39,893 nucleotides of DNA from the IMG/VR virus record IMGVR_UViG_3300041411_000405, positions 1 to 39,893 of that record; one strand, written 5' to 3'. Origin of the DNA: a virus. The notes below the pieces were generated by a model. That model did no database searches and was not told the origin of the DNA. It worked only from the letters and a program-made list of their open reading frames with translations. Below, piece by piece: positions 26,931 through 28,941 of the stretch; position 1 is the first letter of the stretch; each line of letters starts with the position of its first letter. The position numbers and the translations under genes are program-made.

Positions 26931-27048
26931 TTGCCTTCCCCTAATGATCTTCCTGGCAGTTCTTTTCTACTGGATGAATTAACAGCTATTCAGGTGCACT
27001 CCCTCGAATCCGCGCTAAATTCGATACTGTCGCCAATGGACCTCCAGG

Positions 27049-27170: not shown

Positions 27171-27431
27171 CTATGCCGCAGTCTTTTTTGGGTGGGCTTC
27201 GGCAACGCGAAGCACCTTGTGGGCGAGCTCAATAAGGTCAGGCCGCAAACCAGCGATAGTGATCTCGCCTTCAGAGGCGTCTTGAAGGCGCTCGGCAAGT
27301 TCGGCAGATGCTTTCCGATGACCGCCAGCAAGCTGCCAGAGATGTCCGACGGTGGTCTTCGCTGCTTTGGCTACCAGCTGGCGTCGGTCGGCTGTTGCGC
27401 TGGCGAGCCAATCTCGCAAGTGGTCATTCAT
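27171..27431 (-). CDS. Cro-like HTH repressor
   Basis: This 86-aa protein is divergent from cI and the first gene of the rightward (minus-strand) early operon. It resembles Cro/YdaS-type regulators: MNDHLRDWLASATADRRQLV, then an HTH AAKTTVGHLWQLAGGHRKAS and a C-terminal helix LIELAHKVLRVAEAH. It should bind the TTAGC operators and shut cI down in lytic growth. TAGGAGAACC before the ATG is a strong RBS. The promoter at 27457-27485 overlaps the first operator. Confidence 0.85.
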   Translation of the reverse strand: MNDHLRDWLASATADRRQLVAKAAKTTVGHLWQLAGGHRKASAELAERLQDASEGEITIAGLRPDLIELAHKVLRVAEAHPKKTAA

Positions 27432-27456: not shown

Positions 27457-27485
27457 AATTTAGCTTAGGGCTAATATCAGAGCAA
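27457..27485 (-). promoter_or_regulatory. PR promoter for cro
   Basis: On the minus strand TTGCTC, a 17-bp spacer and TAAATT. The operator at 27460-27474 fills the spacer and its last three bases are the first three of the -10. Transcription would start about 27450, giving a leader of about 20 bases before the cro ATG. A repressor on this operator would block polymerase. Confidence 0.7.
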
Positions 27486-27523
27486 GGAATATTTAGCTGT
27501 GAGCACATTTAGCATTGAGCTAA
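27460..27523. promoter_or_regulatory. Operator cluster between cro and cI (OR-like, three sites)
   Basis: The site is TTAGC-N5-GCTAA. Copies lie at 27460-27474 (perfect, in PR), 27493-27507 (one half perfect, other half GCACA) and 27509-27523 (perfect, next to the presumed cI promoter). A weak cI promoter could use TTTAGC at 27508 and CATTCT at 27531, which would make the cI mRNA start at its ATG at 27544. This reproduces the lambda OR1-OR2-OR3 plan with different sequence. Confidence 0.78.
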
Positions 27524-27543
27524 AGAATGGCATTCTTGCTCGC

Positions 27544-28392
27544 ATGGATATCTATGCGATTCGCAAGCGCCAATTGATCAAGTTGATCGGCGATCAAAAA
27601 AAAGGCGCCTGCGCCGAGCGCTGGGGGATGGCGCCTGCGCACTTGAGCCAAATCCTTTCGGAAAAGACTGCCAAGAATTTGGGCGATGACGTTGCTCGCC
27701 GGATTGAGTTGGTTGAGAAGTTGCCAAGAGGGTGGTTTGACTCTCTACCGACCGACGAGGAGTCGGTAAGTCCTGAACCGAAAGACATCACGACGGCGCC
27801 AGCTACCGAATCAAGTTCATCCGCCGCTGACCAAGTAAAGCGAATGCTTGGAAAGGTGAAGGGCCTTTCAATTGAGGCGCGAGATCGAATTGTCGCCGCA
27901 GCCGAAGAGCCTGACGATGGGCTGCCCCATCAACTCTCGGTGAACCTCGCAAGCCTACGCCCCACCAATGACGAGATCGTCATTCCTCAATACGACATTC
28001 GAGCCGCTATGGGCCATGGCCAGGTACCGCCTGAATATACGGAGGTTGTCCGAAATCTGGTGGTGCGCGAGGAAATCCTGCGCGAGAAAGGTATCACCTA
28101 CACGTCGAAGACATCTCTGGGGATGATCAACGGGTGGGGCCAGAGCATGGAAGGCACCATTAATGACAAGGATTTGGTCATTGTTGATAAGGGTGTACGG
28201 GATTTCATCGGAGAAGGGATCTACGTTTTGACCTGGCATCACGAGCTTTATATCAAGCGGATCATGCGCCTCGACGAAGAACATTACCGGCTGATTTCTG
28301 ACAACCCGCACTATGAAAACCAGACAGCCCGGATCGATGACGTAACCATTCATGCAAAGGTGCTGCTGATCTGGAACGCCAGAAAAGCCTGA
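27544..28392 (+). CDS. CI-like phage repressor with S24 peptidase domain
   Basis: This 282-aa protein has an N-terminal HTH (RKRQLIKLIGDQKKG, AERWGMAPAHLSQILSE), a Ser/Ala/Pro-rich linker and a LexA-like S24 domain with Ser201 in GWGQSMEG and Lys238 in LYIKRIMRL. It should repress PR and PL through the TTAGC operators and maintain lysogeny. No Ala-Gly or Cys-Gly pair occurs in the linker or at the start of the S24 domain, where the region reads RAAMGHG, so RecA-stimulated self-cleavage is doubtful. I start at the ATG at 27544; a GTG at 27499 with AAGGAA upstream is an alternative that would place two operators inside the gene or its leader. Confidence 0.9.
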   Translation: MDIYAIRKRQLIKLIGDQKKGACAERWGMAPAHLSQILSEKTAKNLGDDVARRIELVEKLPRGWFDSLPTDEESVSPEPKDITTAPATESSSSAADQVKRMLGKVKGLSIEARDRIVAAAEEPDDGLPHQLSVNLASLRPTNDEIVIPQYDIRAAMGHGQVPPEYTEVVRNLVVREEILREKGITYTSKTSLGMINGWGQSMEGTINDKDLVIVDKGVRDFIGEGIYVLTWHHELYIKRIMRLDEEHYRLISDNPHYENQTARIDDVTIHAKVLLIWNARKA

Positions 28393-28410: not shown

Positions 28411-28436
28411 AGCCCGCTACTACAGCGGGCTTTTTT
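28411..28436 (+). terminator. Rho-independent terminator of cI
   Basis: An 8-bp stem AGCCCGCT/AGCGGGCT with a 5-nt loop followed by six T, 18 bases after the cI stop. The convergent 105-aa gene ends just beyond it at 28444, and the hairpin probably serves both directions only weakly because the minus side lacks a T run. Confidence 0.9.
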
Positions 28437-28443
28437 GTGGCCG

Positions 28444-28761
28444 TCAGAAAGGCGCTAGCTCTTCCACCGCATCGAACTCTTCATGAGCCTCTACACGCGG
28501 GTCTTCATCCGCTGGAGTTTCCCATCGGAGCGTAACAGAATCGTCATCGTTGAAGGTCATCTCGATGCTATCCACATCGGCGAGCGCGCCCATAACCTCC
28601 TCCCATTCCCTGTCCCCATCGGTGTCGAGCCGATGGATCGTCGCCCACTTCCGATCCTGGGCAATTGGGTGATTGATCATGTTCGAAATTCTAAGAGTCA
28701 GGCGCTCCACGCCAGACATTGGCTTTGACTCTTGCGGTTTTTTCTTCTGCGGGCTTGCCAT
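28444..28761 (-). CDS. Acidic 105-aa protein under a LexA box, beside cI
   Basis: No family recognised. The N-terminus is Lys-rich (MASPQKKKPQESKP), the centre is mixed (GVERLTLRISNMINHPIAQD) and the C-terminal two thirds are strongly acidic (TFNDDDSVTLRWE, EEFDAVEELAPF), for a net charge near -14. It is convergent with cI. AAGGAGTAACTG gives a strong RBS. A LexA box ends 18 bases before the ATG, and a CI-type operator overlaps the likely promoter. Control by LexA plus its place beside a repressor without a usual cleavage bond makes an SOS-induced antirepressor a reasonable guess; an acidic DNA mimic is another. Confidence 0.75.
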   Translation of the reverse strand: MASPQKKKPQESKPMSGVERLTLRISNMINHPIAQDRKWATIHRLDTDGDREWEEVMGALADVDSIEMTFNDDDSVTLRWETPADEDPRVEAHEEFDAVEELAPF

Positions 28762-28778
28762 CAGTTACTCCTTGATTA

Positions 28779-28794
28779 CTGTATGCATGTACAG
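28779..28794 (-). promoter_or_regulatory. LexA (SOS) box of the acidic gene
   Basis: CTGTATGCATGTACAG has perfect CTGTA/TACAG arms and agrees with the symmetric LexA consensus at 13 of 16 positions. It lies between the candidate promoter (28804-28833) and the RBS of the 105-aa gene, where bound LexA would block early elongation. Confidence 0.75.
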
Positions 28795-28803
28795 CCTTTC
28801 AGA

Positions 28804-28833
28804 ATATTAGCTTGATGCTAATGCCCGCGTAAA
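28804..28833 (-). promoter_or_regulatory. Candidate promoter of the acidic gene, with CI operator
   Basis: On the minus strand TTTACG, an 18-bp spacer and TAATAT. The operator 28807-28821 ends in the -10 with the same register as in PR and PL (TTAGC-N5-GC, then TAA of the -10). The promoter would thus be closed by CI or Cro as well as by LexA. Confidence 0.5.
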
Positions 28834-28938
28834 GACCGGCGGCGAATTACCTTTCACAACTTCCACATGCCCATAACTTTTACCAAAAGCTAAATTATTT
28901 AGCTCTGAGCTATTGACTGATCTTTAGCCTGTAGCTAA
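28807..28938. promoter_or_regulatory. Operator cluster upstream of the early plus-strand operon (OL-like)
   Basis: Three TTAGC-N5-GCTAA sites: 28807-28821 (perfect), 28899-28913 (last base changed) and 28924-28938 (perfect, inside PL). In addition AGCTAAAT-T-ATTTAGCT at 28888-28904 is a 17-bp palindrome built from the same half-sites. Together with the cluster at 27460-27523 this gives two operator regions flanking cI, which could be joined by looping of repressor. Confidence 0.75.
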
Positions 28939-28941
28939 ATT
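28913..28941 (+). promoter_or_regulatory. PL promoter of the early plus-strand operon
   Basis: TTGACT, a 17-bp spacer and TAAATT. The -35 matches five of six bases. The operator 28924-28938 lies in the spacer in the same register as at PR. Transcription from about 28948 would run through a leader of nearly 290 bases to the LuxR-type gene at 29235. Confidence 0.72.

Follow-up and report, generated by a model that had tools for sequence, protein, structure and literature searches.

A DUF1654 gene beside cI as a candidate SOS-controlled prophage inducer in Pseudomonas phages

Described SOS-controlled inducers and the DUF1654 locus

Coliphage 186 makes Tum, which is under SOS control and inactivates the repressor that maintains lysogeny. 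In the Gifsy prophages of Salmonella, the small LexA-controlled phage antirepressors GftA and GfoA trigger prophage induction, and 186 is named as being of the same regulatory type (PMC3121763). For Pseudomonas putida KT2440, PMC4595014 places the gene PP_3901 under LexA1/LexA2 control and, citing Abella et al. (2007), states that it is needed for damage-mediated induction of several prophage genes.

Here, we describe a gene from a virus record of 39,893 bases, which was analysed over its whole length (the window) and has relatives in Pseudomonas phages and genomes. An earlier note on this DNA had drawn attention to a strongly acidic 105-aa gene adjoining cI, with a 16-mer ahead of its ATG and a TTAGC-N5-GCTAA operator in its promoter. 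These features are borne out: the product has 25 D+E vs 12 K+R (pI 4.45, computed from the ORF at 28444-28761), the 16-mer, CTGTATGCATGTACAG, occupies 28779-28794 and is separated by 17 bases from the ATG at 28761, and the operator at 28807-28821 is perfect (Table 1). The product matches the Pfam profile DUF1654 (PF07867) at 82.1 bits, against a curated cut-off of 27, and PHROG 2707, whose function is unknown; these were the only families that Pfam and PHROGs returned for it, and no described antirepressor family was among them. A literature search on DUF1654 found no test of its function.

Table 1. Features of the immunity region (positions in the 39,893-base window)
Feature	Position	Strand	Details
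Cro-like protein, first gene of leftward operon	27171..27431	-	Weak YdaS match; PHROG 35, transcriptional repressor
CI operator	27460..27474	+	Perfect match; between cro-like gene and cI
CI operator, weak	27493		Between cro-like gene and cI
CI operator	27509..27523	+	Perfect match; between cro-like gene and cI
cI, S24 repressor	27499..28392	+	Peptidase_S24, 72.4 bits; start probably 27546
M171-G172 of CI (numbered from 27499)	28009-28014	+	Linker YDIRAAM171-G172HG
Terminator-like hairpin	28411..28436	.	Between convergent cI and DUF1654; read directly from sequence
DUF1654 gene, 105 aa	28444..28761	-	Predicted core ~17-80; predicted acidic tail ~82-105, ending EELAPF
LexA box CTGTACATGCATACAG	28779..28794	-	At approximate transcription start; kept in relatives
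Probable promoter	28804..28833	-	-35 TTTACG (28833-28828), 18 bp, -10 TAATAT (28809-28804)
CI operator TTAGCATCAAGCTAA	28807..28821	-	Perfect TTAGC-N5-GCTAA; overlaps spacer and -10 of DUF1654 promoter
Two CI operators	28899..28913, 28924..28938	.	One mismatch and perfect, respectively; at divergent rightward early promoter

GftA and GfoA resemble the DUF1654 gene in being small, LexA-controlled, phage-borne and linked to prophage induction. Judged by Pfam and PHROGs profiles, neither they nor Tum show a family relation to DUF1654. The repressors also differ: those of the Gifsy phages wholly lack the cleavable domain, whereas the CI of the window has a full S24 domain with the dyad and the Gly kept.

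PP_3901 comes closer. In IMG/VR record 637000222 (L319), its published primers map to an 86-aa ORF and the stretch immediately ahead of it. The DUF1654 profile recognises this ORF (E 6e-18), which makes PP_3901 a member of the family. Upstream of the ORF lie a LexA box, CTGTCTATGCATACAG, and GTAC-N4-GTGC, a LexA2-like site. PP_3901 shares with the window gene the DUF1654 domain, the LexA box, its residence in a prophage (P1) and a place in the immunity region beside cI. It differs in its length of 86 aa, in having no acidic Pro-Phe tail and being distant from the window protein in sequence, in sharing its orientation with the cI-rexAB operon, past rexAB and hicAB, in its additional LexA2 control and in the type of its CI, which has a Leu-Gly linker. 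The report on PP_3901 is the strongest functional evidence for the family, though it concerns a distant, tail-less relative and reaches us through a secondary source.

The promoter and its LexA and CI sites

The immunity region runs from the Cro-like gene (-) through operators at 27460, 27493 and 27509, cI (+), the hairpin, DUF1654 (-) and operators at 28807, 28899 and 28924 to the rightward early genes. A terminator scan of the window did not list the hairpin at 28411-28436. Each of the 257 loci that have both genes shows DUF1654 on the 3' side of an S24 cI and pointing towards it, with a gap between the two of 37 bp to 4.8 kb. KT2440 P1 and phage PS-1 represent a third type of pairing, in which a short DUF1654 and a GTAQ-type CI share one direction. 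In P1 (L319 573-3301), rexAB and hicAB sit between cI and PP_3901, so this interval holds variable accessory genes; YafO-like and BrnT-like toxin-antitoxin genes are found there in P. aeruginosa phages (L294 7936-8376 and L365 4287-4936).

In the window, CTGT-N8-ACAG occurs twice, with 0.54 occurrences expected by chance, and a single box of this kind in 40 kb has by itself no significance. What is decisive for the box being real is its conservation across DUF1654 upstream regions. A LexA-type box is present in 166 of 169 distinct upstreams, and 116 of them have all eight outer bases, a full set carried by only 6 of 3928 control ORFs. This conservation supports the SOS control that had been proposed for the acidic gene. 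Boxes of this form, though less perfect ones, are also found in the lexA promoters of five Pseudomonas host genomes.

When the DUF1654 upstreams are aligned, the box sits just downstream of a shared promoter, near the expected start, and the relatives have in common both the position and the pattern of that promoter (a TTTAC-type -35 and a TATGCT/TAATAT-type -10). A strict consensus scan of the window did not detect the promoter at 28804-28833; the scan placed a promoter-like site at 28913-28941, at the rightward early promoter.

Elsewhere in the window, a second LexA-like box, CTGTATATATAAACAG, is located at 16-31, at the extreme left end beside lysis-like genes, and the gene that it controls may lie beyond the end of the record. 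A weaker LexA-like site, CTGGATGAATTAACAG, occurs at 26970-26985 in the region of the leftward operon.

A perfect TTAGC-N5-GCTAA would be expected by chance about 0.02 times in the window. We compared this operator between the two genes across loci. Among distinct promoter cores, 48 come from loci with a perfect operator upstream of cI, and in all 48 the DUF1654 promoter carries this operator with no more than two mismatches (no more than one in 44). None of the 86 cores from loci in which cI has a different type of operator does so. The operator of the DUF1654 promoter thus changes with CI specificity, which supports the dual control, by CI as well as LexA, put forward earlier. Several other loci have a different element, a GCAAGC-type palindrome, in common between the cI and DUF1654 regions, suggesting that a matching operator is gained anew whenever the CI specificity changes. 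Weaker candidates for shared elements are perhaps TCAC-N5-GTGA and perhaps a GGTTAA element.

The CI repressor and its pairing with DUF1654

Translation of cI probably begins at the ATG at 27546 rather than at the listed GTG at 27499, because homologous CIs begin MDIYAI. A start at the GTG would place a perfect CI operator inside the cI coding region.

The window CI has its Ser in GQSM and its Lys in LYIKR. The earlier note was right that this S24 dyad is kept and that the linker holds no Ala-Gly or Cys-Gly; neither pair occurs anywhere in the CI ORF, and Met171-Gly172 is found instead of the canonical RecA cleavage pair. Its premise that CI is not cut lacks support. All 204 distinct CIs keep the catalytic Ser, the Lys and the P1' Gly, which argues that self-cleavage is still in use, and Met-Gly CIs occur in Pseudomonas phages where DUF1654 was not found. 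The intact catalytic residues suggest that CI can still cut itself. At P1, the 204 CIs have Met (164), Ala (31), Leu (7) or Gln (2); Ala belongs to the F116-type CIs, and the phages with those mostly carry DUF1654 too. We also considered whether a Met-Gly pair is the mark of a CI that cannot be cleaved and so depends on DUF1654. We rejected the idea, as UFJF_PfDIW6 and FBPa47 have Met-Gly CIs but do not appear among the DUF1654 matches. A literature search on the cleavability of the Met-Gly bond returned nothing.

The divergence of DUF1654 follows that of the C-terminal domain of CI (rho 0.88, n=60; 0.76, n=182) more closely than that of the N-terminal domain (0.54 and 0.35 for the same sets). 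Given the other CI domain, the partial correlations are 0.82/0.72 for the C-terminal vs 0.02/0.08 for the N-terminal domain, and the neighbour on the other side of DUF1654 correlates less than the C-terminal domain does. As cI faces DUF1654 with the end that encodes its C-terminal domain, we analysed separately the loci with a gap of >800 bp. There, rho is 0.70 with the C-terminal domain (0.42 without F116-type phages) and 0.36 with the N-terminal domain (0.12 without them), so that the co-variation drops with the distance between the genes. Most control genes correlate much less with DUF1654; the exception is Cro in the >800 bp subset, and since this control is not beaten there, hitch-hiking with cI is a possible source of the co-variation.

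Possible modes of action of DUF1654

We think it probable that the DUF1654 gene is an SOS- and CI-controlled prophage inducer, antirepressor-like and acting on CI. Its role as an SOS inducer is well supported, by the conserved LexA box, the CI operator, the fixed place, the co-variation with the C-terminal domain of CI and the report on PP_3901. Our reading retains from the SOS antirepressor originally proposed the SOS control, the control by CI and, through PP_3901, the prophage-inducing role, and gives up the uncleavable CI, the S24 dyad being invariant.

In a lysogen, the gene would be repressed twice, by host LexA bound at its transcription start and by CI covering the -10 region. DNA damage would remove LexA and allow the DUF1654 protein to be made, which would then disable CI, most likely by acting directly on its C-terminal S24 domain; CI might be displaced, blocked or helped into self-cleavage. 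The loss of CI would free the DUF1654 promoter further, a putative positive feedback that would commit the prophage, and in a new lysogen CI and LexA would turn the gene off again.

It is also conceivable, though we rate it as rather unlikely, that CI is not displaced and that DUF1654 serves to promote RecA-dependent self-cleavage at a Met-Gly, Leu-Gly or Gln-Gly bond that is otherwise poorly cut, either through contact with the S24 domain or by supporting the RecA filament. The constancy of Ser, Lys and P1' Gly in all 204 CIs while P1 varies is consistent with such help, as are the co-variation of DUF1654 with the very domain that cleaves and the need for PP_3901 in the induction of several prophage genes reported in PMC4595014, and the chromosomal copies of the family would suit a general SOS helper. 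However, some Met-Gly CIs have no DUF1654 at their side, and the Ala-Gly CIs of the F116 type have it too.

The protein itself offers further clues. AlphaFold2 predicts a small alpha/beta core (helix-helix-strand-helix-strand-strand; pLDDT ~90 over residues 21-80) and a disordered tail. A Foldseek search with this model gave no significant match, the best VIA-align hits (Z 6.2; Smr, S8, R3H-like) are within the range of common arrangements, and neither structure comparison identified a DNA-binding fold. A PDB sequence search found no relative of the 105-aa protein.

The tail has a distinctive end. In our first set of 165 distinct DUF1654 proteins, 159 have Pro-Phe at the C-terminus, in 149 cases with at least two acidic residues just before it, and 1 of 10,280 other ORFs ends in this way. 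Across 150 distinct Pro-Phe tails from a larger set, the last six residues are E-E-x-A-P-F (E 89-91%, A 91%) and the linker before them is poorly conserved. The SSB of the host, in the same genomes, ends DFDSFDDDIPF, and its tip (DDDIPF) likewise joins acidic residues to a terminal Pro-Phe after a variable linker. The likeness is one of motif only: Pfam gives no SSB family match for the 105-aa protein, and the DUF1654 tip reads E-E-x-A-P-F. A literature search for a phage mimic of the SSB tip found none. The tip is missing from PP_3901, the F116-type proteins, D14S, phi297 and all chromosomal copies, so the basic inducing function must be independent of it. An association of the tail with a non-Ala P1 in CI, striking in the main set, is broken by D14S and phi297 (Met-Gly CI, no Pro-Phe tail), and we treat it as a matter of lineage, not mechanism.

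That the main job of the protein is to bind the host partners of SSB (RecO, PriA, ExoI, chi subunit) through this tip during replication of the induced phage, its position beside cI serving timing only, seems to us improbable. The prevalence of the tip in the first set, its rarity in the background and the DDDIPF of host SSB speak for it; against it are the members without a tip, the failure of the structure comparisons to identify a DNA-binding fold and the tight pairing of DUF1654 with the C-terminal domain of CI. The tip could instead be part of a prophage inducer acting on CI, with a core matching the S24 domain of the cognate CI and an SSB-tip mimic docking on host SSB-binding repair proteins, e.g. 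at RecA-loading sites. We hold this idea tentatively and consider it doubtful; if it were true, repressor inactivation would be coupled to the place of DNA damage.

Of 40 Pseudomonas genomes sampled, 35 have the family, and a LexA box stands upstream of every one of the 34 host-chromosomal copies. These copies are short, end in F-W-x-V-P-K-E-D and lie mostly near endA, and no S24 repressor was seen within ~1.5 kb of the core copies. From these features, the short copy near endA would be a core SOS gene, and since it has a LexA box and no S24 repressor within that distance, the DUF1654 domain may have another or older job. We rejected its identification with PA0922, which adjoins dinB, as no DinB motif was present within the 1.5 kb checked. 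Although this distribution would fit a general Pseudomonas SOS accessory gene that phages took up and whose target is the host damage response rather than CI, the phage copies stay next to cI, have an operator that matches their CI and co-vary with its C-terminal domain, and we find this very unlikely.

The prophage-inducing role of one family member, PP_3901, had already been reported (PMC4595014). Within the literature searched, four points appear to be new: the link between PP_3901 and DUF1654, the logic of the two operators, the way DUF1654 is paired with the S24 domain, and the SSB-like tip. Our reading of DUF1654 as a prophage inducer provides a candidate function for DUF1654/PHROG 2707, a Pseudomonas-associated family found in many temperate phages. 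By the same reading, many Pseudomonas prophages whose repressors resemble ordinary self-cleaving CIs may be induced by a LexA-controlled protein, which would either add to simple cleavage of CI or take its place. If the conserved SSB-like tip is real, it would connect prophage induction with the repair machinery of the host in a way not reported before.
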